Assembly: GCF_002804105.1 (NCBI RefSeq) | Contig: NZ_CP024964.1 | Span: 558,001 to 622,000 of the forward strand | Direction: 5' to 3' | Length of the DNA stretch: 64,000 bases | Source: Mesoplasma melaleucae | Lineage (GTDB): Bacteria > Bacillota_I > Bacilli_A > Mycoplasmatales > Mycoplasmataceae | Shown here: one piece after another, positions 7,955 to 45,071 of the stretch | Numbering within the stretch: the stretch's first letter is position 1 | How the letters are laid out: every line of letters begins with the position of its first letter | Notes under the pieces: model-generated | The model's input: only the letters and a program-made list of their open reading frames with translations | What the model was told of the DNA's origin: nothing | Database searches by the model: none | Translations under genes and position numbers: made by a program

Positions 7955-9409
7955 TTATAATACTTCGTTTGGTACAGTTACTTGTATTTTTGAAATATTA
8001 ATTCTGGCAATATATGTGTCTCTTCATCCACCATTTTCTCAGAAAATAAATTTAACTCCACTTGAATTTTGATAATTAAGAGTGATACATAAAAAGTTCA
8101 TTTCATTTTTAAATTTATCTTTTTGTAAAAATAACTTTAATCAATTATTTAAATAAGTTGAACGGGGTTCACCCATACTAACAATTTCTTTTTCAAAGTT
8201 TTATAAAAATGTTTTTCAAAGTCTATCTTCAATTGCACGTTTCAAACTATTTTGTGCATCAGTTAAATTACCAATTTTTTTTAATTTTATTAAAAAAAAC
8301 TAACATTTCTTTTTCTTTGTTTTCTTTAAGTCATTCAGAAATTAATATTTTAGCATCGTATTTACTTCAATATCCTGTATCACCTTTAGTACCTTTGTTA
8401 CCTATTAAAGATTTTAATCAAGCTCCTTGTCACCTTCAAACCCTTGTTCAACAGCTATTTCATAAGCACTTTTACCATTGGTTCCTTTTTTACCATCAGT
8501 ACGTCTTTCACCTTTTAAAGATTTGAATCAAGCAGCACGATCACCACTAAATTCAGCTTCAACAGCTACTTCATAAGCACTTTTACATGCTTTACCATTT
8601 TTACTTGGTTTTTCAACTAATGATTCTAATCATTTGTCTTTGATACCTTGGAATCTTTGTTCAACAGCTATCTCATAAGCTGTTTTTCCATTAGTTCCAT
8701 TAATACCATGAGTCCCTCTAGATCCATCGGTTCCATTTTTACCATTTAATCATTTTTTTTTTTTTTTTGTGATCCATGAAAACCTAGTCAACTGTAATAC
8801 CGTATGCACTTTGACCATTAACTCATCAGCACCCTTGATTCCTTTTAAAGATATTAAAAAAGTATCACGTCACCACCAAAGCCAGCTTCAACAGCAACTT
8901 TATAAGCACTCTTAACTTGTTTTCCTTCTTTACCAGGTTTTCCAACTAATGATTCAAGTCACTGATCTTTACTTCCTTGAATCTTTGTTCAACAGCTATC
9001 TCATAAGCTGTTTTTCCATTAACTCCGTTTTTACCATCAGTACCTTTAACCCCTTTTAAAGAATTTAATCAAGCAGCATGACTACCTTCTTTTCCTTCTT
9101 TACCTTGACTTCAAACTAATCATTCAAGTCACTGATCTTTATTTCCAACAAAACAATTATCAACTGCTATCTCATATGCAATCTTTCCATTGTTACCATT
9201 GATTCCATCTTTTCCCATTAACGACTTTAATCAAGCATCTTGATTACCTTGAAATCCAAAATCAACAGCTATTTCATAAGCACTTTTACCAAATTTACCT
9301 TGTTTTCCTTGATCACCTTTGTCACTTTTTGTAGGCCCATATGCAACAGTCGTTCCTACTGTTGTTGCTGTTAACCCTGAAGCAGCTAAAACGTTAATAA
9401 TTTCTTCAT
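7955..9409 (-). pseudogene. Collagen-like repeat lipoprotein, degraded
   Basis: From ATG at 9409 the reading is MKKLLT, then a one-base deletion; the shifted frame continues LAASGLTATTVGTTVAYG, an obvious lipoprotein signal peptide whose lipobox Cys is now Tyr. About seven units of roughly 40 residues follow, built as Gly-x-x collagen-like linkers (DKGDQGKQGKFG) plus SAYEIAV, GFxG and AWLKSL, a unit also seen in phage fibres and surface proteins of Firmicutes. Many frameshifts and stops follow, including at a 16-T run (8753-8768). The C-terminus ISKIQVTVPNEVL ends at 7955. Probably a former adhesin-like surface protein. Confidence 0.8.
8753..8768. repeat. 16-bp homopolymeric T tract in a coding region
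   Basis: Sixteen consecutive T (A on the coding strand) in the collagen-like pseudogene, where the surrounding units would need only a few. Such tracts slip easily during replication and are also prone to sequencing error. Confidence 0.9.
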
Positions 9410-9678
9410 GTACCATCCTTCCTTTCCTTAATTTAAATAATAAAAACACGTTCCATTACTTATTACCATTGAAAAAAAGCAATTTAGAATTTTTTGAGTA
9501 CATGATTTCGCAAACATACTTTTATATCTAATCACTTATAGTTATACACCTTACTTACCTGGTTTAAACTATTTTCTTTTTTTTGCTTAAAGATAAATTA
9601 ATTGCGCAAAATTTTTATCAATTTCAAATAGACAATATCTTAAAAACTTAATATATTTTTTTCAACCGTTTAATTTTC

Positions 9679-13592: not shown

Positions 13593-16093
13593 TTATTTAG
13601 TAAAATCAGGTTTTAAAGATTTTACTCAAGAAGTTGATGTTTCTGTAACAAATCAGTATAATTTGTTACTTTTAATACATCTAATTTGAAAGATCTTGAT
13701 TGAATGCAACAGCATAATAGAACATATTGCTCATATTAGTTACATTTGAAGTTTTTCAAGCGCCAATATTTTGATTAAACTTTATTGCACCATTAAACAT
13801 ATTTGACATATCAGTTACTTTTGAAGTATCTCATGCTGAAATATCATCATTAAAGCTTAAAGCATTTTTAAACACATTTTTCATGCTAGTTACATTTGAA
13901 GTTTTTCAAGAACCAATATTTTGATTAAACTTTTTTGCATTATTAAACATATTATTCATTTCAGTTACATTTGAAGTATCTCAAGCATCAATATTTTGAT
14001 TAAAACTTGATGCACCAATAAACATACTTGACATATTAGTTATTTTAGCCCTAATGCTATTTGGAACTTTTCGAACTGATGTTGGCATTTGATATGCTTT
14101 TCCTGTTGAATCATATCCTATATGTGTAATTTCACTAGTTCTTTCTGGAGCTTTTCCACCAATACTTGTTTCTTTGCCTGTTGTAGAATAAATTTAGTAT
14201 GTTAAATTATCTTGGAAAATTGTTATAGAAAAGGTTATTTCTTCAACTCGCATTTATAAATCAATGAATTTTGATTTGCTTTAGCTGTTACAGTGTAATT
14301 TTGAGATTCTATGTCAGCGGTTTGATTGATTGTTAATCTAATTTCTTCAATATTTAAATTTGGATTTTTTGTTTTTAAAGCTACTTTAACAGTTATTTCA
14401 TTTGTATTTATTAATGGCCCTAACTTTTTATAAACAATAACTTCACTTAAATTTACAATAACAGCATTATTTATTTCAAAAGTTGCACTATCTAATTCAT
14501 ATCCCGTTCTAGCAATTGCTTTAATCTTAACATCAGATTTTGACCTTCTTTTAATGTAGCAGTTAATGGTTCAATGTTTTTTAATGCATTATCTTCATTT
14601 CCATTAGTTAATTTTGAATGCAATTCTGAATTTACTTCATTAAAATTTTCTTTACCTTTAATTTCACGAACAGTAGTTTTAACATCAACTATTTTAATTG
14701 GAGTTTTATTAAGCTTATCAATTTGAATAATAACATCATTACCTTCAACTTTTGAACTTGTAGAAACTGCTTTAATTGTAATTGATCCAGTTTTATCTTA
14801 ATCAGCTTTAACTATATCAATTGTTACATCTATTGTTAATGATAATTGATCATCATCTTTTAAATCAAAATTTGTATTTAACGTATTTAAAACAATATCT
14901 ATTGTTGTATTATTTGAAATACTTAAACTTAATTTTTCTGCAGTTAAGCCTATAAGATTATCTTTTTTAAAGATTTTTGCAGCATTAACTGTGAATTTCC
15001 CATTAAAGTCTTGCTTATCTCAAACATAATCTTTATTAAGTCTTGCTGTTACCGTAAATTTTAATATATTTATTGAATCCTCTTGATCCTCTGTTAGAGC
15101 TACGTCACTAATTTTTGCACCTGAAATCTGAACAACTTTAATGCTGTCATTGCTTCTTATTGGATCATTTTATTGTTTACAGCCTCATTAAGTTTTGTTT
15201 GAACACCTGATACTTCAAGAGTTTTAGTTGTTCCAATTCAAACATTTTTAACTGTGAATGTTCCATCTCAGTTATCTTCAAATTTTGTATCAGAGGTTAA
15301 AGTAACAGCAATATTTACTTTTTCAGTTTTAACACTATAAACATTTGCAATTGTTCCAGTAATTGAAGCAACACCAACTGGTTTTGCAACATCACTTAAA
15401 GCTGCATTTAAAGCATTTTGATCAGCAAATAATTTATCATCACCTTTAATTACGGCTTCAACATCAGTTTTAACTGATGCTTGTGTAATAACGTGAATTG
15501 TTACAATTGATAAAGTAACATTTGTTTTACCATCTTTAAAATCATTTGCTAAAACATAACCTAGTTTTGCCCCAACTGTTACATTAGTATACCCACGTGT
15601 TTGAACTGGACTAGCTTCTTTTATTTCAAAAGCATCACTTGAAACAGCTTTAATTGCTTCAATTGCTTTTTCATTTGATCAATAAGTATTATTTATTAAA
15701 TTTGCTAATTCAGCATCAACTGTAGATTTAAATACTTTTTGATCAGGTATAGTAGATTCAGTGTAAAAAGTGACTCCTTCAACTTTTCCAGAATAAACAG
15801 TTGAACCATCTTTTGGTTTAACAATAACAGTGTAGTTTTTGACTAAAACTGATTTGGTTGACTGTATAATAGATAATTTTATTTCATCTGTGTTTAATTC
15901 AACATTTTTTTCTTTTAAAGCTATTTTAACAGTTGCTTCTGTAGCATCAACTAATAACCCATATCTTTAACAAGTATAAATTTATCTAATGCAGTTATTT
16001 TATTGTTAACTTATCACTGCCACAAGAAATAGCTAAAATTATTAAATTTGTAGTTAAAGTTATAGCAGCAAGAAATCCTAATAATTTTTTCAT
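13593..16093 (-). pseudogene. Lipoprotein with beta-repeat region and C-terminal DUF285 repeats, degraded
   Basis: Starts MKKLLGFLAAITLTTNLIIL with lipobox AISC, then reaches TAA within 12 codons. The next 400 residues parallel the intact lipoprotein ending at 28206 (NYTVIV, STVYSGKVEG, SVxDDELANL counterparts). The C-terminal part reads IGYDSTGKAYQMP, then five 25-residue units of the form FNQNIxxWxTSNVTxMxxMF, which are DUF285/BspA-like leucine-rich repeats common on mycoplasma surfaces. Frameshifts recur, including in the last unit, after which the expected TETSTSWVKSLKPDF tail is readable to 13593. Former surface protein. Confidence 0.85.
13700..14060 (-). repeat. Five tandem 75-bp DUF285 repeat units
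   Basis: Each unit encodes 25 residues with Phe-Asn, Trp, Ser-x-Val-Thr-x-Met and Met-Phe at fixed spacing. Units alternate two nucleotide sub-types (gaagtttttcaag and gaagtatctca starts), consistent with duplication of pairs. Confidence 0.85.
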
Positions 16094-16515
16094 GTAAACT
16101 CCTTTAAAATTTTTTATAACCATAAATAAAAACTTATAAAAATAAATTTTGCATCATTTATTACAAAATTTTTTTATGTTTTAGAATTAAACAATAGTTA
16201 ACTATGTTAGAACATATAGATTTTTATAATAAGCTATTATATTATACAATAAAGTAATACTATTGTATGATTTTTAAAATGTTTCATATTAACATTATTA
16301 ATTAACTTAATTCTCTGTATATTTTGTTTTCAAAATTCTAAATGCTAAAAAATTAAGTTACAGAGTTGCTATTTAGTTTTATTAAAATAAAAAACATAGG
16401 ATAATCTTTGTAAATTAAAAGTGTTATTTAAATATTGTTTTTAATTTTTGCTTACATATAAACATAAATTTTATTTTGATATTAATTTTAATATTATACG
16501 TTAAAGAAAAAACAC
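16094..16515. other. Divergent intergenic region
   Basis: No gene seen in 422 bp between two diverging broken genes. It is extremely AT-rich and must hold both promoters. One inverted repeat (ATACAATA 16244-16251 with TATTGTAT 16261-16268) could be an operator or just AT-rich chance. Confidence 0.4.
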
Positions 16516-18789
16516 ATGACAAAAAGACTTTTTATGAGTATTTTAATTATAATCTAAGTTTGTTTAGTTGGATTTATCGCATTTGTTAGCTTTAATCAAA
16601 GTAGAATTTAAAGAAATGTTTATTTAGATCCAGGTAGTTATGCTAAAAGTGTTAAGCCAAGTGATATCACTCCAATTTATACTTTTACAACTGATGCTTA
16701 TGAGATTTTAGCTCTTTATGAACTAGATGGTAAAAACAACTCATTAGAAAATGCTAAATTCTATAGAGAGTTTGATAAATCAATGGTTTAGTAAATGATA
16801 AAGCAAATCAATATTCAATTGATCTTTGAAAAAATGATCTTAATACAAGTCAAATAGTTGTAGTAACTAACCAAAAATTTGATCAATTAGAAGTTAAATT
16901 ATCAAATGAAGAAGAACTAAAAAGCAAAGGATTGCAAGTTGCATATGATTTAATGAATTCATTTATGCTAGTGATAATAAAACCACAACTGGATTGGCTA
17001 ATATTTATGGGATAAACAAACCTTTACTTGTTCCTGAAAAAATTACAGCTCATAAAGTATTAAATCAAGTTTATAAAGATCGAGTATATATTGTTAATGT
17101 AACTGTTAATTCAGATGAAACAATTTAAAGCGTTAGTTTAGACTTAAAATTTTTAATAACTGGAACTAATAACAAAGAAACAGCTAAAAATTATACTGAT
17201 AAACAAGCTTCAATTAAGGTTAACTTATTTACAATTAATTACAGTTCAACAGATGGTAAAGAAAATGATGTAGATTTTAATTTATTTAGTTTCTCTGAAT
17301 GAGCTTCTGATTATTGTAATCAAGCATATGGAAATGGTCATCCTGATAATATTGATCCGCTTGATTACAAACAATACATTCAATTTAATTGAGATAAATA
17401 TTGAAAACTTCAGTTTAGCTATTTAGCAAATAATATGAATATGGATTGATTCCAATTAAATAATGTAGATTCATGAAATATGAACTGAACAGATGTATTG
17501 GGTACAACTCGGGAATATCATAATGCATGAAAAATTAAAATAAAATCACTTAACTTTATTAGTTGAAAATACAAAGGTAATTTTGATACTTCAGATTGAA
17601 GAAATAGAAATATTAAACTTTCTGACATTGAAAATGGTTTAAAAATTCCTGACAGTGATTGAGAAGCATTTGATATGTATTTAAACCTAATGGCTAAGGT
17701 TGATATGAAAAGAGGAATGATTAATTCTTTAAACCAAGAAAGAGGAGCAACTGGTAAATCATTGATATTTACAATGAATCAAAGAAAAAATACTTTAAAG
17801 TTCCTTCTTCTGTTATTCAACCTGAAGGTCATGATTTTAGTAATTGATGATTTAAACAATTAAAAAACATATAGATGATAAAATAGATGATAAAAAAACC
17901 AGCATGAACAAAAGATATTACATTATATTACTATCTTAATGAAAAAGATTCATTACAAGTAAATGCAACAAATGATTTATTAAAAGAAATTAATCCAGAT
18001 AAAAAATATTTACATTTTGCAGCAACTGATTGAGAAAATGATATGGACTATACAAATGCAAGTAGATGTGACCATACTGATTATGTTTGAGTTTATATGT
18101 TAGATATATATAACTAAAACAATAAAAACTTTATGGAATTTACAAAAAGACGTAATAAAAAAGGTTTACATACTGGACAATATTCTTTAGATTCTGATAA
18201 TACATTTAATTTAGCTAGAGCAGAATCTGGTATTTCAGGATGTACACAAGCTGCTTTATATAAACAAAACTCACCAAACTTTTTAAAATAATCAGTAACT
18301 GGATGAGAAGAGTGTGTTAGTTGATGATTATCAGATTTTAAAGATTATAAATTCCTTGATATAAATTATATTTCAGTAGATACTCTTTGAGCGTATGCCA
18401 AATATAATAATATGACAAAAGATGGTAAAGCAGCGATTATAAATGCTGATGTAGTTCAATTTAATCCTTCAACAAGATTAGAACAATTAGCAGTTGGAAC
18501 AAAAAACATGCAAAAAATTAATTATCTTATTAAAAATAAGGTTTTTGATAAATCATTAGTTGATAATAATGTTTCTAATGCATTAAAGTTAACAAAAAAA
18601 TTAAGTAGAACTAAATTTGACTTAAACTTTAATAAAACAACTATTGATCCATTTCTAAAGACTAAGTCTTTTGTTAAAAAATATTTAAGTAATAAAAACG
18701 GACCTGATGAAATTGAAGGTTACAAAATTATTATTAATAATTTAAAACAAGTAACACGAAGTTACATTAATACAAAAGAGGGTTTATAA
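16516..18789 (+). pseudogene. Large membrane-anchored extracellular protein, degraded
   Basis: Start ATG at 16516 gives MTKRLFMSILIII, an N-terminal anchor, interrupted by TAA at codon 14 and again soon after. The body is readable with a few shifts: ITPIYTFTTDAYEILALYEL, a Trp-rich centre (DYKQYIQFNWDKYWKLQF, NNVDSWNMNWTD, ISWKYKGNFDTSDW) and an intact final 125 residues to TAA at 18787-18789. It has no lipobox Cys. The family is unknown to me. It is followed directly by a second membrane gene on the same strand, so the two were probably one operon. Confidence 0.7.
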
Positions 18790-18790
18790 A

Positions 18791-19209
18791 ATGATAAAAT
18801 GATATTTAGTTGATGTAGAAATATTATGCTATATAAAAATTGTTTTCTTTGGTTTAACATTTTTATGATTATTTATAAATTACCTTTTATTATTTTTAAA
18901 AAGGATAAATATATCTCAATTAAGTGATTAGTTCCTAATATTATTTTAACATTAATATTAACTGATCTTTTAATCTTTTGATTTATTAGTTTATATATAC
19001 CTGAAACAATAATTTGTTTTGATATTACTAACCAAAAAGAGATTTTATTCTTTGTTAAAATAACAATTGTTTTCTTAGCATCATCAGTTGTTTATTTAAT
19101 TTATTTAATGATTTGTTCAAGATTTTTTGGATATTGAATAAAAGATGAAAAGAAAATCCATTTTGCAAAAACAAAAGCAAATAAAGTAAAAAATGAAAGC
19201 AAATACTAA
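18791..19209 (+). pseudogene. Small membrane protein, probably frameshifted
   Basis: ATG at 18791, 1 bp after the previous stop, opens MIKWYLVDVEILCYIKIVFFG and stops after 46 codons. A second frame, usable from ATG at 18826, runs 127 codons through hydrophobic helices (WLVPNIILTLILTDLLIFWF, KITIVFLASSVVYLIYLMI) to a basic tail (KTKANKVKNESKY) at 19209. The total length is not a multiple of three from 18791. Either a frameshifted gene or a shorter intact one using 18826. Function unknown. Confidence 0.5.
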
Positions 19210-19237
19210 AAAAGACCAAATCTAATTGGTCTTTTTT
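19208..19237 (+). terminator. Terminator after the 16516-19209 gene pair
   Basis: Stem AAGACCAA/TTGGTCTT with a 6-nt loop and T6 on the plus strand. Confidence 0.9.
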
Positions 19238-19258
19238 ATTGGTTATAAAACGATTAAA

Positions 19259-19969
19259 CTATTTGCTTTTTATATTAGTAACATAAACTAATGTTTCAAT
19301 TCAGTTTTATAGATTAATTGATAATACTGAAGTAATAATAAATAATGATTTTGAAATTTTACTTTTAGTTACAATTAATCTTGAAACAAATATCATGTTT
19401 AATAAGTTAATAATTGCTAGATACGCACAAACAATTAATCCAATCTTAACAAACATCATGTATTTATCTATGTTAAATTATTTAGCTAAGTTATTAACAA
19501 AGTTTAAACTTAATGAATCAGGTAAAGTAATTGTTTAATTATTTAAAGCTTGATTAATCATAGTTATTACATCTTCTTTTTTTTAATAGTTCATTAGATA
19601 ATTCTTTAACTTTATCTAAAGTTAAAATACTTCCATTTGGTAATTTAACATCACCAGAATTAATTGATTAAATAATCTTATTATAAATCTCATCTGCTGA
19701 CATTGCTTTTAATAGTGTTTGTTTTTGTGCTTGCTCAATTAAATCCTGTAATTTTGTTGTAACTGTACCTTCTAAACTTTCTGCTATTTTTGGAATAATA
19801 AATTTTCTACACCAATTATAGCTACTACTAATAAAATTATTAATATTAAGAACAATAGAATTAATGATGATGATCCAACTACATTTAAAATTTATCCTGT
19901 TTTACGTTTCTTAGTATTTCTACTAAACTGATTTTCTTCTGAAGTGATTACTGATTGTATTTTTGTCAT
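19259..19969 (-). pseudogene. Membrane protein, degraded; paralogue of 10987-11734
   Basis: Start ATG at 19969: MTKIQSVITSEENQFSR then KKRKTG and an in-frame TAA where Trp (TGA) would fit, then ILNVVGSSSLILLFLILIIL as membrane helix. The soluble segment with KLPNGSILTLDKVKELSNEL and the paired C-terminal helices match the other copy segment by segment. At least four stops or shifts are visible. Function unknown. Confidence 0.7.
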
Positions 19970-20118
19970 AGTCTACTACTTTCTATTTTTGAATATTACT
20001 GATTATTAAAATAATATAAATATATTGTATACTTAAAAGAATAAATATACCTTTATAGTTGGAATTAAAATGAAAATAAATCTACTAATATTAGTTAAAA
20101 TAATTTATAAAATTAATC

Positions 20119-20150
20119 AAAAAGCCATTTCACTAACGAAATGACTAATT
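20119..20150 (-). terminator. Terminator after the 20167-21639 lipoprotein relic
   Basis: Minus-strand stem GTCATTTCGTTAGTGAAATGGC (6-bp core CATTTC/GAAATG) followed by T5. It lies 17-48 bp after the stop. Confidence 0.75.
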
Positions 20151-20166
20151 TTTATTTTATTTTATT

Positions 20167-21639
20167 TTATTTAAATGCAGCATAATAAATACCTTCAGTA
20201 TTACTTCCTTGACTTGTTACATCAATAAGCGCTTTTGATAATTTATTAGATCTTCTAACTTCAACCTTATCAATAGTACCAATATCAGTCACTATATTTT
20301 TAAATGCAGCAATAATAGTTTGATTTTTAGTATCTGCGATAATACCTAAATCATAAGTTTTCATATTGTAAGAAATAAAATAAATTATTAACTCATTTGT
20401 TATAGTATCAGTAATTTGAATTTGTGTTTTATCTTTTGGACTTAATTGATTTTTATTTGAATTAACATTTATAGTTTTGTCTTCTAATTTTATGTCAGCA
20501 TTTTCTGCTTTAAAAGCAGCAATAATTTCTTTTTCTGTATAATAATCAAATTGATTTTCTAATGTATATGTTTTATAACTAAATGAAGCATAATAAGTGC
20601 TTTTACCATCAACTAAGATATTTGCTTATCCTTTTTCGTTTGAGTCACTATAACTATCAATTTTGACTGTTAAAGTTTTTCTTTACTTTTTTCAGGATAC
20701 TTTTGCTTAAATTTAGTTAAAACTGAAGTTTCATTTATTTGTTCTAAATTACCTAATTAATAATTAGTAACACTAAATAAAACAAAATAACTTATACCAC
20801 TAATTTCAATATGTGCTTCTAAAGGTGAAAGTGGGTCTTCATAATCATCTATATACGTAATTTGTATGTTTCCCTTAGCAGACAGATTTTGATATTTTGC
20901 TTGAACTTGTATGAAATATTTTTTTTATTTGCATCTTCGTCTTTTATATCTTTAATTTCTTTAATAACTCCTAAATCATAAGTTTTACCTAATTGTTCTG
21001 TTTATATTGTCCCTCATATTTAGTAGTATTTTTTGAATAAATACTAAACGTCCTTTCTGAATTAAAGTTTGTTAAAATAATATCTTTATCTTTAAAAATT
21101 TCAACTGCTTTTCGAAGTTTTGCTTGTAATTCAATATTATTGTCAACAACTTCAAATTCTATTTCTTTTAACGAATTACAATCTTGATCAAAATATGACT
21201 GAGTAACTTTACCTGATTCTATTGTTTCTTTAAAGAAAGCATCTCATTCGGTTTTTTTGGTATCAGTCATTTCGTTCTAAAAATATTTCATGCTTGTATG
21301 TCACTAATTGATGTATCATCATAAATTTCAGTTCCTATTTTATCTGCACCTCATGTTAATAATAAAAGTGGATAAAGTGCTTTAACTTTGACATCGCTTT
21401 CTTCTTCATCAGAGCTTTTTACTAAAATTTCTAAACTCTAGAAAAATCATTAATATTTACTTTGTCTGTGGTTCCACCACCTGATTCACCGTTTCCTCCA
21501 GATTTTCCGTTTCCGTTTCTACTTCCTCCAGATTTTCCGTTTCCACCATCTGTGTCTTTATTATTGCTACATGCAATCACAGTTGATGTTGCATTTCAGT
21601 TAGTCCGATTGTTGCCAATATTGTTAAAAGTTTCTTCAT
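20167..21639 (-). pseudogene. Gly-rich-linker lipoprotein with repeated domains, degraded
   Basis: ATG at 21639 gives MKKLLTILATIGLT, then a one-base shift; the corrected frame continues ATSTVIACSNNKDTDGGNGK, a clear lipobox (VIAC), and a linker made of GGNGKSGG- and NGNGKSGG-type units. Further in, several similar segments recur, each with YDLG or YYASF-like phrases and KIEV/DIKVT strands, ending EGIYYAAFK at 20167. Stops and shifts occur throughout, for instance just after the linker. Former surface protein; no family assigned. Confidence 0.75.
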
Positions 21640-21866
21640 TGTAATCTCCTTTTATTTAAAACATTCAACTTCTATTTTTTATGCTGATTAAATTTTTAAA
21701 CTTTAAAAAAGATATATTTTAGTAAAACATAAGATTGTTAATATTTTAATTTTACATAAAAATCAAACTAAAAGGGTTATTATAATATATAAAGTATAAA
21801 ATATTTTAATACTAAATTAGTAATATAACAATATTTAAAAAGGATACTAATTAAAATTGGCAACCT

Positions 21867-22649
21867 TTAATTAATCTTTGTTATGCTTTTATAAAGCACT
21901 TCCATATAAGTATAAATTAGTTTAAACCCAATTTTCTCATACATTAGTGTACCATCTTCTGTTCCAAATAATAACACTTCAGACTTATTCATTTGTTTAG
22001 CATATGAGATTAAATAAACATAAACATTTTAGCAAGCCCTTTACCTCTTGCTTCTACTAATACTGAAATATCATCAATAATCAAATGTTCAGCATCAAAA
22101 TAGATGTTACCAGTACCAACATATTGATCATGTTCATCTTTAATTAAGATCATATGGTTAACTTGACTTGCTAAGTTATATTCATGAATTGGATGATATT
22201 TATCCAAATCAATTGTTTCTAAATTAAAGGTGTTTTTAATAATGTCAGTAAAAATATCAACTTCAGTTTGAGTTTCAACTACTATTAATTAATGGATTAT
22301 TTAAACTATCATTAATTGCTCATGTATCAGTGTTTAATAACATTACTTGATAAACATGCAAAAGTTTAAAATCATTATTTATTAATATTTGATGATTTTG
22401 ATTTCCTAACTTGTTTGAAAAATTAATTCAAGCAATGTTATAATGATTGTTTGTAATGTTATTTACTTGTTTAATATTTAATTTTAATAAATCATTTGAA
22501 ACAACAATAAACGCATCAGCTTTAACTTTATCAATGATACAAACATAATCAGTGATTTAATTAAAATTAGCTTTAATATATTGATCAAATGGACTAGCAT
22601 AATATTTTGTAAAGTTATTAATTAAATTACTTCCATATAAATTATGCAT
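21867..22649 (-). pseudogene. GNAT-family acetyltransferase, degraded
   Basis: Start ATG at 22649 (MHNLYGSNLINNFTKYYASP). An in-frame TAA follows after KANFN, then a shift near 22290 and another near 22015. The C-terminal half shows the GNAT core: NHMILIKDEHDQYVGTGNIY, IIDDISVLVEARGKGLAKMF (acetyl-CoA-binding R-x-x-G-x-G/A) and, after the last shift, LFGTEDGTLMYEKIGFKLI. The full protein would be about 260 residues with an extra N-terminal domain. Substrate unknown. Confidence 0.8.
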
Positions 22650-22955
22650 TTTAATTACTCCTTAATTACACAGTGATTATAGCATAAGAGAGTAAATCAA
22701 AAACAACGTGCTTGTCTTATAATTTTAATAAATCAGTGTATCTAATATACAAAAAGACCTTATCTTTTAAATTATTTTAAGTTTTTTAAAATTGTAATAC
22801 TAAAAATCAATGAACAACTTTTTATAAAAACTAAAGTTAAAATATAGTTAATATATTTTCAAGCAAATAAACATTATTGTCAAATTCTAGATCTTCAAAA
22901 ATGCAATGATAATCATTAAATAATGCAAAAAATAATTAAATTAAAATCTACAAAT
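22650..22955. other. AT-rich intergenic spacer
   Basis: No open frame, tRNA or strong terminator seen. It separates the GNAT relic promoter side from the end of the OLD-family relic. Confidence 0.4.
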
Positions 22956-24364
22956 TTATTTTATAAAATCTTTAAAAACTTTTTCTAACTCTAAAACTAA
23001 TGGATTGTTTACATTATGATTCAGTTTTTCCCTCTATCTTTTCATGCATGATTTTTTTGAATTATGTCGCCTGTTCCTGTATTTGTTGTATTAAAAATTG
23101 CTTTTTCAAATTCTTCATGACATTTAATAAGTTCATAGTTTTCTAGCTTTGAAAAATCTAAATAAAATTCTAAACATTTTCTTTTTAAACAATAAACAGT
23201 TTTATTTTCTTCTTTTTTGTGTACTGTTCTTCATTTTTATCACCATTCAAAATTTTTAAAACTGGTATATTCGAATTTAAAAGAATTTGATTTTTAATCA
23301 AAACATTTTTAAAGTTTTCTGCTCCATTCAACGGAATAAAGAAAACTTTTTTCTTCTTATATTCATCAATATCTGCGCAGTAATTATTTAATATATTTTT
23401 AAGCACACTCATATCTTCATTCGATTCTACAAAAATATAATAATCAGGTTTAGATTATGTTATAAAACTGAACAAATCTAATAGCAAACAATTTATTACA
23501 AAGTTTTGATTTTTATTATCTTCATTTTCTTCAGTAAATATAAACTCAGTTTCTTCAAATTTTGTCTTTGCTAAAATATTCATTACAATAGGTGAATGAG
23601 TAGAAAGTATAATTTGATTGTAATTATTTGATAAGATTTTTGTAAGTATTAACTCAATTTTATTTAAAGATAAATTATTTACAACTTCATCAATTAATAA
23701 AGTTGTATTTTGCATTTTAGAATTCATGCACAATAAAGAATATATTAAATTTTTCTTTATACCTGACCCTATTAATTCAATATTTTCATCATCATTTAAT
23801 TTTGGTTTAATTATTTTATATGATTTTATTAAGTGAGAAGAAGAACTTAAATTAAAATTTTTACGAATAGTTTCTTTATCTTCAAATGCAAAGATATCTT
23901 CTTTCATAAAATTATTAGAAATTTCAAAAATACTTTCTTGAAAAGCTTTGTTTAATAAATTATATGCTTCTTTTAATTTGTTGTCATATCTATTCTGTTG
24001 TAAAAATAATTATTTACAACATTATTAATAGTGCTTGTATAATCTATATTTTCTGATTCAATAAAAATTAAATTGTTTGCCACAAAACTTGTTTTAATTT
24101 CATTATATTCTTTTTCATTATCATAATTTGGTAAGGTTTCATTAATATTAAATTCTAAAACAAATTCTTTTTTATTATCAAACAAAAATTTAAACTTAGT
24201 TAAATTTGTTTTATTTTTTGAAAAATAACTAAATAAATCATTTAAAGCTTGTAAAATTGTTATTTTTTCAGAATTATTTTTTCCCATCAACGAATTTATT
24301 TTTTTAAAGTGAAATGTTGCTTCTTCTATTTTTTATAATTGTATATTGTTATTTTAGATATCAT
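22956..24364 (-). pseudogene. OLD-family AAA ATPase/TOPRIM nuclease, degraded
   Basis: Start ATG at 24364 gives MISKITIYNYKK before the first shift. The reading resumes EEATFHFKKINSLMGKNNSE: the P-loop is recognisable but GKNNSGKT has become GKNNSEKI. Further pieces include TTLLIDEVVNNLSL and IILSTHSPIVMNIL (Walker B and H-loop of ABC-type ATPases), then IFVESNEDMSVLKNIL (TOPRIM VEGxxE counterpart), FFIPLNGAENF and ILNGDKNEEQY. This order is that of OLD-type ATP-dependent endonucleases. Several shifts and the altered P-loop mean it is dead. Members of this family act in phage defence. Confidence 0.75.
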
Positions 24365-24418
24365 TTAAATAACCTCTTTTCATATTTATAAATTTTTTAA
24401 TTTTGTTTTAAATAAAAA

Positions 24419-24456
24419 ATAAAACAATGTTTAATTTAAAACATTGTTTTAAATAT
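24419..24456 (-). terminator. Terminator after the repeat lipoprotein gene
   Basis: Minus-strand AAAACAATGTTT...AAACATTGTTTT stem followed by a T-rich run; the stop codon of the original gene (24436-24438) lies in the loop. Confidence 0.8.
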
Positions 24457-25731
24457 TTTATTGTTAACAATTGAAACAGTTGCTGATCCATCATATATTG
24501 TTGAATTAGCTACTGGAGTAATTGTTGCTGTATTTCCACTAATACTAATTTTAACATCTTCTGCATTAATACCTTTTTCTGTTAACAATCCTTGAACTGC
24601 TGATTTAATTGCTGTTTCATCTGCATCACTTGCAACATTTACAGAAGCGTTAGCACCAACTTTTGTTGCTAAATTAACTTTATCAACTTGTGGATTTGAA
24701 ACTGTAAATATAACATCGATTGAACCTTGATTGTAAACTTTGCTATTAGCATTAACTGTTACTTTTGCACCAGTTGTTATAATATTTATTTATATTAATG
24801 TCTGAAACATTTAAGTTTGAGTTAACTGAGTCAGTTTTTAAAACTGCTAAAACTTGTTTTTTAGAAGGAGTTTTACTTGTTTCTTTTAGATCAATATTTC
24901 CTAAATCCTTTGTAGCTAAATCATTTGCTAACTCAACTCTAGTTTCTACACTAAAAGTTACAGGAACTGCACCGCCTTTATAAACAGTACTTTCAGATTT
25001 AACAGAAATTGTCGCACCTGTTGTTGTAATTTCTCCAGTTACTTCAATTTCATCTTTATTTAAACCTGAGTTTAAATCAACTGCTCTTTCAATAATTTGC
25101 TCAGCTGTTGGTTTTGCATCAAATGTTCCTAAAGCTTTATTTGTTAAAACTGTGTTGATAATTCTTTTTTTGTATCTACTGGTTTATACATATAAATTAA
25201 CTGTAATTTGAACAATTGTATCTTTTGTAACTAATGTTGATCCATCTTTTCCAGTAACTGTAACTGTTAAAGTTTTGTTAGTTTCATTTACTTTATTTGG
25301 AATTGTTATAGTTCCAATTGTATAATCAGTATCTTTTACAACACTATTAAACAGATTTGGAATTACACCTTCAATATATTCTTTTGTATTGTTAGTTTCT
25401 GAATCAATAGTTACAGTTTTCGCATTAGCGTCTTTTAAGAAAACTGATAATTCTTTTCTTGTATCAGATGCTTTAATTGCACCAGTAATATCAAAAGTAG
25501 TTGAATCTAATTTGTATCCTTCTTTTTCAACTGCTGTAACTGTTACATCAGTTTGTAAACCAGCTTTTAATGATGCTGATAATGAAGAAATATTTTTTAA
25601 TACACTACCATCAGTTGCACTACTTAATTTTGATTCTAATTCTGTATTAACAGCGACTAAATCAGCTTTATCTTTAATATCACCAACTGCGTCTTTAACT
25701 GATTCAATTGTAATTGGAGTATCAGCAACTT
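24436..25731 (-). pseudogene. Detached, decayed C-terminal part of the repeat lipoprotein
   Basis: After the 11-bp duplication at 25728-25749 the old frame continues ADTPITIESVKDAVGDIKDK and runs through several more beta-repeat units (AGLQTDVTVTAVEKEGYKL; TIPNKVNETNKTLTVTVTGK). A one-base insertion near 25190 and others near 25160 and 24785 break it further. The final NNKIFKTMF ends at 24436. It belonged to the same gene as 25732-28206 and would have added about 430 residues. Confidence 0.8.
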
Positions 25732-38193: not shown

Positions 38194-41034
38194 CTATTTA
38201 TAATTATATTTTGTACTGAAATCAGCAAAATTAATTTTTCCTATTTTTCCATTTTTATATTTAGGTTGAACACCAACATAAATATTTTCATTAGATGATT
38301 CATCTAATTCTCTTAGATAATACCTGTTTTGTGAAGTTTGACCAACTCTATATCAGTTATTTTTATCTGTTGAATAATATACTTGATAATAATCAACTGC
38401 TTCTTGGTTTTTATCATTTCAATTAAATCTTATATTTATATTATTTTTTGAAGATTTTCTTTTTACAATATATTCATTTTTAATATTAACAATTTCATCT
38501 TGAATATCTTCATACGGTTCAGTATTGTTTTTGTCAATCTTAAATCCACCTACATTAAAAATAAACGGTGTCTCAGATCCATTTTCTCCAGGATTAATTT
38601 CTATTCCTAATTTTGCTATTCTTTTGTCCTTTGAAATGCCATTTAACTTTGATAAATCAGAAGATATTTTATATCAACCATCTTGATTTTCTTCTACTGT
38701 TGATTCTAAAACTATTGGTTGAGCATCATCATTTTCAGAAGTTAACTCAGAAGTTATTACAGTTATTTTGGTATTTTCGGCAATTTTTTTTATCATTTCA
38801 TTAGATGAAGCTTTATTTGTATCTTCATCTGTTGACTTAACATAAAAACTAACTGTATAATCATTATTTTGTAAATTAGAACCCATTATATTTCAATAGT
38901 AAGGATTATTTTCTCAGTTTCCTGGTTTTACTGTTCCTTCTTTATCAAAATCATATCCCATACCTATTGCTAGTGAATTTCCTTTTTGATATGCATCATA
39001 ATAATCATAGTATCCTGTTAATTGACCCTGATTAGTAATTTTACTTACATTTTTAATTCCATCTGATGTTACAACTTTAGTTGTATTAGGATTTTCTTTA
39101 CTTGACCAAAAATCCCATTGATAAGTTGGCGAAACATCAGCTAACCTTGAATTTGTTCATGGATATATTTTATCATTTATTCTTAGCCCATTAAAATCTC
39201 TATTAACAAATTGAATACCAGAACCAGTAGAAAAATAAGTTTCTAAAGTTGGATCATTTTCAATTTCCTTAACTTCAGTAGAATCTAACTGACTATAGTC
39301 ATTTGAAATAACGCTGTCTGCAACAACTGTTTTTTCTCAGTAAACATTTCCTATTCCATAACTGTTAATTTTTTTACCTTCATTTTCTTTTCCTATATCG
39401 CCCATTGAAAATTCATATGAAATAGTGTTATTTTTTTTATCAAATTTTTCATATTTAAGTCTAGGATCATTTTGATAAATTCCTGCAATTGACTGTTTAC
39501 CTTGTGAAATTAATTTATCATACCCATCAGCATTGTTTTCTAAGTAACTATTTGATCCAAAGAATTGATATCCTGAATATAAATTTGAAACTTCTTGTTG
39601 CATTAAGTAAACTTTATAATCATCATTTTTTTTATTTGAAGTACTTAAATAGTAATTTTTGAAATCCTTTGCATATTCATTTGCTCCACCTGAACCAAAA
39701 ATTGAAAATGAGTTATTAGCTTTTCCAAAACCATTAATATTTCCATTTTCGTCTTTTGTTTTTTCAAATATCAAATTTCTTACATCATAGTTACCAACAC
39801 CTGGAATATTTGTACTTTCATTTAGAAGTGAATAAATTGTTTTTCTTTTAGATTCATCTCCATTTCAAATATTATTTAAGTATGTCTCAAAATTTGAAAC
39901 ATCATTAGTAATAGTAAAATCGAGTTGCATTTCACTAGCATATCTTGCAGCATCAATTGTTTTTTTTGAGTATGGTTTATTGTTTACAGGATCATAATCA
40001 AGCGTTCCATCATTGGTGTAATATACAATATGCAATCTTTTTCCCAATTCAGACTCTAAATCAATTGCTCTCTTATTGAAATCATGCATTATTTCATTAA
40101 TTTCAGAATTCTTAATGACGTAGCCATCACCTTGAGATCCATTAGCTTCATTGTTGATCATTCAACCATCAAAATTATACTTTAAACATTGCTCAATTAA
40201 AATATCAACTATTTTAAAATCTCCTTTGGAATTTTTTTCTAAAAGATTTTTTAAAGATTCACGCGTTAAATCTTCTCACCCTGACATGTACCATAGACCT
40301 AGTACAGGTATACCATTTTTATGCATGTAATCAGTGTAATCTGCAAATGAAGCTGTAATTCATCCTTTATTTGTAATTGCAGGCCATGTGTACATTTCAT
40401 GAATATATGAAAGATTAGATAGATTTCCACCAAAAGGGTTTTTAGTTCCAACCATAGAGCTAGAAGCATTTGAGGGATCATGAAACATATTAAAAAATGT
40501 ATCTTTTTGTTGAGATTTAACACTATTTTTGGCTACATAATTTCTTCCTCTTAAATCATAAGAAGCTTGATTATAATAAAGATCTAAATCTGATCCATCG
40601 TTTCAATTCAGAATTGAATTTATATACGAATGTTTTCTAGCTTTTGAACTTAAGCCAAAGTCTAATCATTTATTTCCATTAGGTCTATAAGATTTAATAA
40701 CTGGTGCTCCTGTTGTTGCTTGTTTTTTAACAAAATTAGCACCTTTATAAGATGTTGAATAAATATCATAATTAAAAATATTATCAACAGGCCCCTGGAT
40801 TCCAGAAATTTGATTAAGTTGTGAATTTTCAAGTTTCATACCATTTTTTACAAAATCATCATACTTTCAGTTATATCCATCACCATCTTGGGTCTGGCCT
40901 TTTGATCAATCAAAATCTTCAAATGTTTCCAAATAATCTCTTGTCGAAGAATCTCCAATATTACATGAAACAACATTGAAAACAGTACTTGCAACTATTG
41001 TGATTGTTGCTGCTAAAGTTAGTATTTTTTTCAT
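38194..41034 (-). CDS. GH85 endo-beta-N-acetylglucosaminidase lipoprotein
   Basis: 946 residues. Lipoprotein leader MKKILTLAATITIVASTVFN with VVSC (Cys24) anchors it outside. GH85 features: MYTWPAITNKGWITASFADY, NGIPVLGLWYMSGWEDL, and YNFDGWMINNEANG, where N294 and E296 match the catalytic Asn-x-Glu pair. These enzymes cut the chitobiose core of N-linked glycans. The C-terminal part has beta-sandwich modules (e.g. TVSFYVKSTDED) and a fibronectin-like end (VDYYQVYYSTDKNNWYRVG). Its ATG overlaps the previous stop (TAATG). Fifth gene of an intact operon. GH85 assignment good; target glycoproteins unknown. Confidence 0.88.
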
Positions 41035-41954
41035 TATCATATACCTTTCTTATTAAAAATTTGAATTAGCATGAAAAAAGCTATAGTTCAAACTGTAGAA
41101 AAAAATAGAGTAGTTGGCAAAATCATTCAAATTTTATTTGTTAAGAATGTGTAAGGAACTTCAAGGTTAGGGCTAACTATTGTTTCTAATATATTATAAT
41201 TTGCAAATGTAGTATTGGTAAATAAGGAAATGAATAATCATTGAAATGATTTTGCAGGTATTAAGTAACCAAAAATATTATAAATCATTTGCGCACGTTT
41301 ATTTGTAACTAAATTTATATCTAAAGCAACATCTGCTAGACCAAAAAATAATATTATTAAAACAAAGTTTATTGCTTGTATTAAAACAATTGATTTTATT
41401 TTTAATGATGTAATATAAGAAATGTTAAAAATTAAAAACAAATATAATGTGAAAAATAATATTAACAATATAATAGCAGATAGAAAAGTTAAATATTCAT
41501 AAAAATTTCCTTTAATTATATAAAAACCTGCCATGTTTCAAAATGTTACTGTAAAATTTTTAATTTCTAAAAAGTAATCAATTATAAATAGTGAAAATAT
41601 TGAAAAAATAAGTGAAATTAAAGTTAATAAAGAAATTGAAATAAAAATTGAAAAGTAAAAATTAGTTTTGCTTATTGAAAAAAATTTAGATTGTTTTATT
41701 AATATACTTTCTTTTCAGTTAACTAATGTTGAAGAAAAAGCAAATAGTGAAAAAGTAAAAGGTATAATCAAAAGATTATATATTTGTCCAGATTTTTCTG
41801 AAAAATCGTCTTGTCCAAAAGAAGTTTTTATTAAATATATTGCTAAAACGATAAAAATAGGCAATATAATTGAAAATAAATAATTTCTAAATGATTTAAA
41901 AGTTGAATATAATGTGTAAACTAATACATTTTGAAATGGAATTTTATCTTTCAT
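41034..41954 (-). CDS. ABC-type transporter membrane subunit (second permease)
   Basis: 306 residues with about six helices: LFSIILPIFIVLAIYLI, LIIPFTFSLFAFSS, LLTLISLIFSIFSLFIIDYF, AIILLILFFTLYLFLIFN, AINFVLIILFFGLADVALD and IWMILPTTLFFSTVWTIAFF. ABC-2-like layout with a large loop after helix 1. Ends GIW-TAA with the stop overlapping the GH85 ATG, so translation is coupled. With 41968-42840 it likely makes a heterodimeric channel. Confidence 0.75.
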
Positions 41955-41967
41955 ATTTTTTCCTTTC

Positions 41968-42840
41968 TTACTTTCATTTAAAAAATTTAACTGATAAATA
42001 ACACATTACAATTATAAATAATACTGAAATGGCTAAAAGAATTCACAAATTTGAAATAAACAGTGTTGTCTCAGAATGAGACTCATCAAAAATTATTTGT
42101 TGTATTCCACCTTTAAAATCAATAAATGTGTATGACGAAACAATTAGCAAACTTCAAACTACGTATTTTGAAATAAATAAATAGCCTAAATAATTAAAAA
42201 TACCTCATCTTGCAGAAATAAATGAAGGAATAACTGTGTCTGACATTGTTAAAAATAGTAAAAATAAAATTAAAGGCACTGACATTCTAATATTCTTACT
42301 TTTAAATAAATCTGATATTGTTGAGGATAAAAGAAATGCAGAACTGACACAAATAAATGATACTCCAAAAAACCAAATTCACATTCATCAGTTTAAATCT
42401 AAAATGTAATAAAATTTAACTCTTATGAACAGTAGAGATATTAAGTATGTCGCAAATATAACAATAATTTCAGAAACAAATGTAAAAAAAGCAGCACATA
42501 ACATAAATGAAAAAACAATAGATCATTTCTTTATACCCAAAAATTTAATTCGTTTTAAAAGCGAAGTATCTTTTCATTCAATTAAAAATATTACAAAATA
42601 GGTTGCTGATACAAAAGAAGGAATAATGAAAATAGCTAGCATTTGAGGTGGTAATAATTCATAAGAACTATAAAAAGTTGAATATCCTATAAAACAAATT
42701 ATTGTTATTATTAGTGAACCTAAAATAATAAAAACTCATGCTCTTTCATTTTTAATTGATGAAATAAAACTAGCTCTAAAGATTTTTGAAAAATTATTGG
42801 TGCTAGTTTTAAAACTTTGATTATAATTTACCTTATCCAT
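41968..42840 (-). CDS. ABC-type transporter membrane subunit (first permease)
   Basis: 290 residues, six or so helices (WVFIILGSLIITIICFIGY, MLAIFIIPSFVSATYFVIF, WSIVFSFMLCAAFFTFVSEI, WIWFFGVSFICVSSAFLL, VPLILFLLFLTMSDTVI, LWILLAISVLFIIVMCYL). ABC-2 exporter-like. The start overlaps the ATPase stop by 8 bp. No periplasmic-type binding lipoprotein is adjacent except possibly the secreted protein upstream. Confidence 0.75.
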
Positions 42841-43543
42841 TTATTTTTCCTTCAAAATAAAGTGTTAAAAAGTTTCTAATTGAACCATATTGCTTTTTTA
42901 GTTGATCTACTGTTTTATCAATAAACAGAGTTCCACTATTTAATACTACTACTCTTTTACAAATTTGTTCTATTTCTTCAGGGATATGAGATATAACTAT
43001 TAAAGTTATTTTTTCTGTTTTTCTCATTTTATCAAAAAAATTAATTAATTTGATTTGCATTTTTAAATCTAAACCAGTAATCAATTCATCTAATATTAGC
43101 ACATTTGGTTTATTTATAACTGACAGCATCGAGTTGAATCTTTGTTGCTCTCCTCCTGAGCAATCAGATATTCTTTTTTTAATAATTGTTTCAACTTCAA
43201 ATATATTTATTAGATCCAAAATATAATTATCTTTTTTTCATTTTTTACCAACAAAAAGATTTAGTAAATCAATTCCTCTAGTATTGAATGGTCAACTACC
43301 ATTTTGAAATTGCATACCAATTTTTTCCTGTACCGAATTGTCCTTTTTATTTTCAGAATTATAAAAATTAATTTCTCCTTCTGAATATTCACTAACTCCA
43401 GAGATTATTTCAACTAATGTTGTCTTACCTGCTCCATTTGCTCCTAATATACCAATAGATTCTCCATCTTTAATATTCAAATTAATTCTGTCAAGAACAA
43501 CATTATTTCCATATTTTTTGGTAAGATTTTTAATTTCTATCAT
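42833..43543 (-). CDS. ABC transporter ATP-binding protein
   Basis: 236 residues. Walker A GANGAGKTT (about 35-43), Q-loop MQFQNGSWPF, signature SDCSGGEQQR, Walker B VLILDELITGLD and H-loop VISHIPEE. The Glu usually following the Walker B Asp is present (LDE), so it should hydrolyse ATP. The C-terminal region is short. Its ATG lies 1 bp after the stop of the secreted-protein gene. In-frame TGA codons near 43250 and 43295 are Trp. Confidence 0.92.
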
Positions 43544-43544
43544 A

Positions 43545-44816
43545 CTAGCTCATTTCCTCCATCGTAAACATTAACAGATTTCATGTTTTTTCAACAAAAC
43601 CACGCATTGTTTTGTTTAAATCTATTCAAGGGTTGAACGATAATCTTTCTCTATTTTCTTTATTATTATTTGTTTCTTTTAAATGTTTATCTATAATTGG
43701 CTCATCTGTACTTTTGTTATATTCAAGTTCATTATTTTGATCATAACTAACATAAACTATTCTCTGATTGTTGTTTTCAACAGTAAACATAAAAATTCTT
43801 AAATCATAGTATGAATTATATTTATATGCGTAATATAATAAGGAACCAGGTGTTGCTCCTGAATATTTAAATGGGTCATTTGCGCCTGTTAAAGGACTTC
43901 CTTTTTGTTGATAATTTGGTGATTTTGAATCTATGAAATCTATATAACTTAAAGCTATTTCGCAATAAATCTTAATTAAATTGTTAGCTATATAGCAATT
44001 TAAATCCAAATCGTTTGAATTGTATTGGTTTCAATCTCACACTTTGTATTGAAGCATTTCATCAGAATCATATGCTCTTATTTGAATTTCTAACTTATTT
44101 CTTAAATATCCAGGATCATAAATATCAAGTATTTCGTCACCTTTTTTTGCTTTAAAGTATACTGGTATATCTGAATTTGATTGATTTGAAACATTTTCAC
44201 TAGTTATAAGTTCTGTAGTTCTAAAGAATATATTATCTGTTCCTTCTTTGTTACTTAATTTAACATAGTCCTTTTGTCCGTCATTATATAAATCACTTTT
44301 ATCTGTATATAATATTTCAAGCCTTGGATCAGAATTGCTTACATAAATGGTATATCCAGCATTCTCTAAAGCTGTAAAATTTGCTATTTCATATCTACCA
44401 ATTTCATGTAATTCTGAAGCTGTTGGTTTATTGTGACCCATAACTTGTAAACCTAAATAAATAGCATCAGTTAAACTTGTTTTATTTCTGATTGGTTTTT
44501 TATCAAAATTAGCATTCAATGCATTCGTATCTTTTTTTAAAATTGATTTTACTAATCTTTCCATTTTTAATTTATATTGTCAATCATATGCTGCAGAAAA
44601 TGAACTTGAGTCACTTAATAATTTTTCCCAACTTTTTCTAAATAAAGGTGATAATGGAATATCATTAAAATTTAAAAGATTTTCTAATTGATTACCAGAA
44701 AATTTTCCTTCTTTTTTAAAAGAATTTTCTATTAAAGAATATGCTGAGTATACTGGTAGTGAACTTACAATTAAAAAAGCAGCAATAGTAGGCAATATAA
44801 TTTTATTTTTAAGCAT
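43545..44816 (-). CDS. Secreted or membrane-anchored protein of unknown function
   Basis: 423 residues. I chose ATG at 44816, preceded by GGGAGATGTGGAA, over an ATG 15 bp upstream that overlaps this site. MLKNKIILPTIAAFLIVSSL is a signal peptide or anchor without a lipobox Cys. The ectodomain is hydrophilic, rich in Tyr, Asn and Asp (AGYTIYVSNSDPRLEILYTD; QYNSNDLDLNCYIANNLIKI). No catalytic motif recognised. First gene of the GH85 operon; may bind glycan or glycoprotein, or help the transporter (inference). Confidence 0.7.
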
Positions 44817-45045: not shown

Positions 45046-45071
45046 ATAAAAAAACCAAGCATTGCTTGGTT
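45046..45071 (-). terminator. Terminator after eno
   Basis: Minus-strand AACCAAGC/GCTTGGTT stem with a 3-nt loop and T7. Confidence 0.93.

Follow-up and report, generated by a model that had tools for sequence, protein, structure and literature searches.

A GH85 endoglycosidase lipoprotein gene-linked to an ABC-2 type transporter in Mesoplasma melaleucae and its relatives

In a 64,000-nucleotide stretch of the Mesoplasma melaleucae genome (contig NZ_CP024964.1, positions 558,001 to 622,000; hereafter the window), five adjacent genes on the minus strand form an operon that encodes a protein without a recognised family (here called X), an ATP-binding cassette (ABC) ATPase, two permeases (A and B) and a predicted endo-beta-N-acetylglucosaminidase lipoprotein of glycoside hydrolase family 85 (GH85; protein P0005). 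The genome is a single contig of 845,295 bases in which TGA is read as tryptophan (table 4), and all coordinates below are positions in the window. The best reading of the operon, to which a probability of about 0.5 is given, is that of a surface deglycosylation module whose ABC-2 type transporter would power or serve the enzyme. The module itself is well supported by comparison of sequences; the role of the transporter within it is what we infer.

The operon starts at 44816 with the ATG of X and ends at 38194 with the last base of the GH85 stop codon, and the genes follow one another in the order X (43545..44816, 423 amino acids), ATPase (42833..43543, 236 amino acids), permease A (41968..42840, 290 amino acids), permease B (41034..41954, 306 amino acids) and GH85 (38194..41034, 946 amino acids). 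The tight packing reported in the first-pass annotation of this DNA was confirmed at every junction: 1 bp separates the stop codon of X from the ATG of the ATPase gene (TAGTATG), the ATPase and permease A genes overlap by 8 bp (ATGGATAA), a 13-bp gap lies between the two permease genes, and the GH85 start codon shares 1 bp with the end of permease B (TAATG). Under table 4 none of the five frames is interrupted, and each gene has between 2 and 15 TGA-coded tryptophans. The ratio of nonsynonymous to synonymous substitution rates (dN/dS) was 0.10-0.16 for each gene when the nearest relative (locus L042, with proteins 78-89% identical to those of the window where measured) was used as reference. 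Purifying selection is acting on all five genes, as the same annotation had supposed when it described clean frames and a selected unit, and a decayed or pseudogene state of the operon is ruled out by these ratios.

The identity of the last gene as a GH85 lipoprotein, proposed at first sight, was borne out. P0005 matched PF03644 with 58 bits against a cut-off of 22.2, and a profile built from 20 homologues matched solved GH85 structures with E values from 8e-50 to 2.5e-40, among them Endo-A (8e-50) and Endo-D (1e-40). The FDGWxxNxE motif of the profile aligns with N171 and E173 of Endo-A; in P0005 the corresponding catalytic pair is N294 and E296 (motif FDGWMINNE, minus-strand codons 40147..40155), which is intact here and invariant in all 20 aligned mollicute GH85 sequences. 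Y339 is equally invariant in this alignment. Published work names Asn, Glu and Tyr as the catalytic set of GH85 (PMC12961652), and Y339 is a candidate for the last of these residues. A mollicute-type lipoprotein signal is present at the N-terminus, with an LP_plasma match just below the NCBIfam cut-off and a hydrophobic stretch closed by VVSC, in which Cys24 (40963..40965, minus strand) is the predicted lipid anchor. The two residues IG of the sequence CxIG (residues 24-27, window 40954-40965) are kept in some homologues that lack the Cys (AFIG, VNIG), which suggests that the IG pair may have a role beyond lipidation. Action of the enzyme on host N-glycans is predicted from these similarities.

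The ATPase matched PF00005 with an E value of 1.8e-23, and its Walker A (GANGAGKTT), signature (CSGGEQ) and Walker B (VLILDE) motifs are readable. It also scored well against models of lantibiotic-protection ATPases and of ATPases for the export of phenol-soluble modulins (PSM), though with generic matches that stay well short of the curated cut-offs. Permease A has about six membrane spans by hydropathy, and permease B, likewise examined by hydropathy, is its paralogue, as the permease A profile cross-hits it. The window permeases matched the ABC2 membrane domain (ABC2_membrane_3) only below threshold (E values of 0.44 and 0.065), and such matches among their homologues were weak (5 of 21 and 5 of 16). 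Because homologous housekeeping permeases match ABC2_membrane_3 above the cut-off, the transporter is assigned by transitive homology to the ABC-2 (exporter) type, probably for both permeases. In the family profile searches, neither the window permeases nor their homologues qualified as importer permeases of the BPD_transp_1 family. Many relatives have roughly one copy per genome of the housekeeping paralogue just mentioned, close to fbaA and pyrG; the paralogue consists of two genes, for an ATPase and one permease (L113-L132), and is widespread in the family. It is apparently absent from the genome of the window, where the permease search gave only the two permeases of the operon. It had been named beforehand as a ground for doubt that the permeases might be unrelated exporters with housekeeping orthologues; a housekeeping role was rejected for the permeases of the operon, since the paralogue falls in a clade of its own and has no GH85 gene beside it.

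The coupling of GH85 to a transporter was then found to be much wider than one operon. In the order, 62 GH85 loci were examined, and 298 genomes were covered by the profile searches for X described below. All 53 hits to the permease subfamily with at least 139 bits had a GH85 match no more than 6 kb away, so chance adjacency is rejected, and 52 of the 57 GH85 loci of the family had such a permease within the same distance. The module is retained in 31 of the 60 sampled family genomes, a genome having as many as three copies. Nearly all of the 62 loci include the transporter, and the genes stand in five arrangements: X-ATPase-permA-permB-GH85, ATPase-perm-perm-X-GH85, X'-ATPase-permA-GH85-permB, GH85-ATPase-perm and ATPase-perm-GH85. 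The minimal unit found is GH85 with an ATPase and one permease. The order seen in the window is present in all ten X-bearing genomes among the 60, with flanking genes that differ between genomes, so that synteny, on which the first-pass annotation had made its proposal depend, is conserved in relatives. Its claim of a coupling between GH85 and the transporter is therefore real, while the coupling is a property of the family and not peculiar to this operon. The GH85 loci without the transporter are L069 and L070 (both in genome G030), L078 (G037), the decayed L103 and the importer-linked L109 (G251). These permeases were found at none of ten GH85 loci sampled from other Bacilli, whose neighbours, judged by eye from the starts of reading frames, were sugar-catabolic or unrelated. 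A scan of contigs with the GH85 profile gave three loci only, probably since back-translated patterns miss TGA-coded tryptophan.

Enzyme and transporter have evolved together. In a tree of 60 GH85 sequences each architecture corresponds to about one clade, and the type of the window forms one clade with full support; the ATPase tree gives the same groups and sets the housekeeping ATPases apart. Over 50 loci, the distances in the two trees were correlated with r = 0.86, a value reached in none of 2000 permutations (maximum 0.13), and in genomes with several copies the pairing of GH85 and ATPase is kept by type. Both trees are quick maximum-likelihood trees under one model.

Within the genus of the window the module is patchy: the five-gene form occurs only in the window's genome, another form in two siblings, and four genomes have no GH85. 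In two siblings (G008 and G012; loci L051 and L052) a GH85-ATPase-permease set has a ksgA-like gene on one side and a gyrB-like gene on the other, close to the start of the contig, and the GH85 frame of L051 is split in two. At L043, one of the ten loci with the five-gene order, the GH85 frame starts downstream of the expected start. Fragmented loci were also seen in Spiroplasma. In S. poulsonii MSRO_BK (L085, L110) GH85 is in several pieces and the ATPase and permease genes are interrupted, and in S. ixodetis SHM (L112) a partial GH85 gene lies amid several copies of transposase genes.

Protein X, described in the first-pass annotation as a secreted first protein of no known kind, has no significant match in Pfam, NCBIfam or the PDB. 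Its length of 423 amino acids and its lack of a family stand, and the description is amended by a hydrophobic N-terminal anchor without a lipobox, so that X is probably anchored or secreted; several relatives' X proteins do carry a lipobox. When a 15-sequence profile of X was searched against the 298 genomes, 15 strong matches (272-522 bits) were obtained, all of them in GH85 operons, and the next matches fell to 20 bits and were mostly of signal-peptide length. The profile search that had been suggested for this gene thus led to no known family and to strong homologues in GH85 operons alone. X is an orphan family and a marker protein of the GH85-transporter system. In other GH85 operons the position of X is taken by shorter proteins of 250-410 amino acids, and chained profile comparisons linked them to X with probabilities of 98.9, 93.6, 100, 89.5 and 77%; these are single pairs of shallow alignments and serve as a lead, by which the shorter proteins may be distant relatives of X.

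Several known systems can be compared with this operon. Endo-A and Endo-D have the same catalytic domain, the same Asn/Glu pair and an extracellular location, whereas in the window the GH85 gene stands in one operon together with those of X and the ABC-2 transporter. In pneumococcus, EndoD is likewise functionally paired with an ABC system, NgtS-P1-P2, which uses a solute-binding protein, importer permeases and mannosidases of GH38, GH92 and GH125 (PMC5215778); the operon of the window differs in its ABC-2 permeases, in having no recognisable binding protein and in the lack of these three mannosidase families. It has been reported that pneumococcal virulence depended on EndoD and not on glycan import (PMC5215778). 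The mycoplasma surface proteins MIB and MIP cut host antibodies, for which they depend on an F1-like X0 ATPase that is gene-linked to them and catalytically active; a reset of the surface complex by ATP hydrolysis has been proposed (PMC12994834). That system resembles the present one in joining a surface enzyme acting, in our case by prediction, on host glycoproteins to a gene-linked membrane ATPase, often in several copies per genome, and differs from it in being a protease and not a glycosidase, with an F-type and not an ABC ATPase. Neither F-type alpha/beta-like subunits nor MIB or MIP were found among the five operon genes. A published survey found no MIB-MIP homologue in Mesoplasma, Entomoplasma or Spiroplasma (PMC12994834), and these three genera are the groups in which GH85 with ABC-2 occurs here. 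ABC-2 exporters such as NosFY, PmtCD, LanFEG and the housekeeping mollicute paralogue have the same type of ATPase and permease; the operon transporter differs from that paralogue in its separate clade, always beside GH85.

In the mechanism that we propose, the lipid-anchored GH85 would cut the core between the two N-acetylglucosamine (GlcNAc) residues of host N-glycans outside the cell, and the cutting would alter host glycoproteins rather than feed the cell. The machine would stand in the membrane on a base made up of the ABC-2 ATPase and permeases, with X as an anchored accessory protein in this subtype. Hydrolysis of ATP in the cytoplasm could then bring about a conformational change or a local transport needed by the assembly of GH85 and X, for example if the transporter helped to seat, release or reset the substrate. 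The physical complex, the energy coupling and the role in host interaction are all putative. A bolder form, an undescribed ATP-powered surface glycosidase machine in which the endoglycosidase is a dedicated ABC-2 subunit, X is an orphan adaptor and host glycoproteins are modified, is offered tentatively, at a little short of even odds. Several points weigh against the proposal. ABC-2 transporters normally move a substrate, the complex of GH85, X and transporter is one that we infer only, and the comparison with MIB-MIP is an analogy and not a homology. AlphaFold models were unusable, with a predicted local distance difference test score (pLDDT) of 36 for GH85 (from three sequences, P0005 and two relatives) and of 33 for X alone, which gave no fold assignment. 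The absence of GH38, GH92 and GH125 from the window's genome, which favours the proposal, comes from a search that covered these mannosidase families and no others.

Use of host glycans, which the first-pass annotation had raised, is now less supported. In such a scheme GH85 would free N-glycans and the transporter would import them as food, with GH85 or X in place of a solute-binding protein, and there are facts that fit it: GH85 is elsewhere tied to sugar importers, as in pneumococcus, and in G251 a 1286-amino-acid GH85 protein of a mollicute (L109) is encoded beside MalF-like and MalK-like importer genes, and X lies outside the cytoplasm and is never missing from the operon in this subtype. 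However, the permeases are of the ABC-2 type and not BPD_transp_1, no binding protein is recognisable and X matches no Pfam or NCBIfam family. GH92 and GH125 were found in none of the 60 family genomes, and GH38, present in 15, is untied to GH85 (8 of 33 genomes with GH85, 7 of 27 without). One of the GH85 genes of G030 without the transporter has GH38 genes around it. A catabolic-looking GH85 type, beside GH38 or a MalF/MalK importer and without this transporter, thus exists and is distinct from the transporter-linked type. Feeding on released glycans is unlikely given the ABC-2 permeases, the lack of a recognisable binding protein and the lack of the three mannosidase families in the genome.

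The transporter could instead work on its own as an exporter or expeller of host antimicrobial peptides, lipids or toxic compounds, in the manner of LanFEG, and be co-transcribed with GH85 as both serve host contact. ABC-2 exporters with lipoprotein partners exist, such as LanFEG with LanI, and the ATPase scores against lantibiotic-protection and PSM-export models point the same way; but those scores are the generic ones given above, and subtype-matched co-evolution together with 53/53 linkage exceeds what shared regulation would need, so we hold this to be quite improbable. It is also conceivable that the transporter flips a GlcNAc-bearing lipid outward and that GH85 transglycosylates host Man(n)GlcNAc (Man, mannose) onto it, coating the cell. 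ABC-2 transporters do export lipid-linked glycans in other bacteria. Transglycosylation is known for GH85 enzymes as well (PMC10154615). Yet the operon contains no glycosyltransferase or glycolipid-synthesis gene, and glycan capture is given very little weight.

Around the operon, the upstream boundary is marked by the terminator of the upstream gene eno (45053..45071, minus strand), an 8-pair stem with a T run. A scan for -35/-10 promoters told nothing in DNA so rich in A+T, with 58 found and 61 expected. Elsewhere in the window, the region 13681-25700 is sparsely coding, with short frames that resemble repeats of BspA/DUF285 surface proteins (NIDAWDTSNVT), which agrees with the decayed surface genes that had been noted nearby. 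At 8414-9416, two short frames with collagen-like Gly-X-Y repeats (GTDGSRGTHGINGT; KGDQGKQGKF) are possibly surface-protein remnants.

In the open-access literature (subscription journals were not searched) no prior description of the GH85-ABC linkage was found, the enzyme appearing only in single-gene mentions: a Spiroplasma endo-beta-N-acetylglucosaminidase is upregulated in an S. poulsonii variant (PMC7187355), and one appears in a listing for S. mirum (PMC9666726). Both families, that of the enzyme and that of the transporter, were known before; their linkage is apparently undescribed. With it the X family gains a defined context, and an ABC-2 transporter is apparently tied to an extracellular enzyme. 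Spiroplasma, Mesoplasma and their relatives are intimately associated with insects and plants, and little is known of their action on host glycoproteins. Retention in 31 of 60 reduced genomes, in up to three copies and five gene orders, means that the module must matter to the bacteria that carry its genes, and its place on the insect side may correspond to that of the antibody-cleaving system in mycoplasmas.

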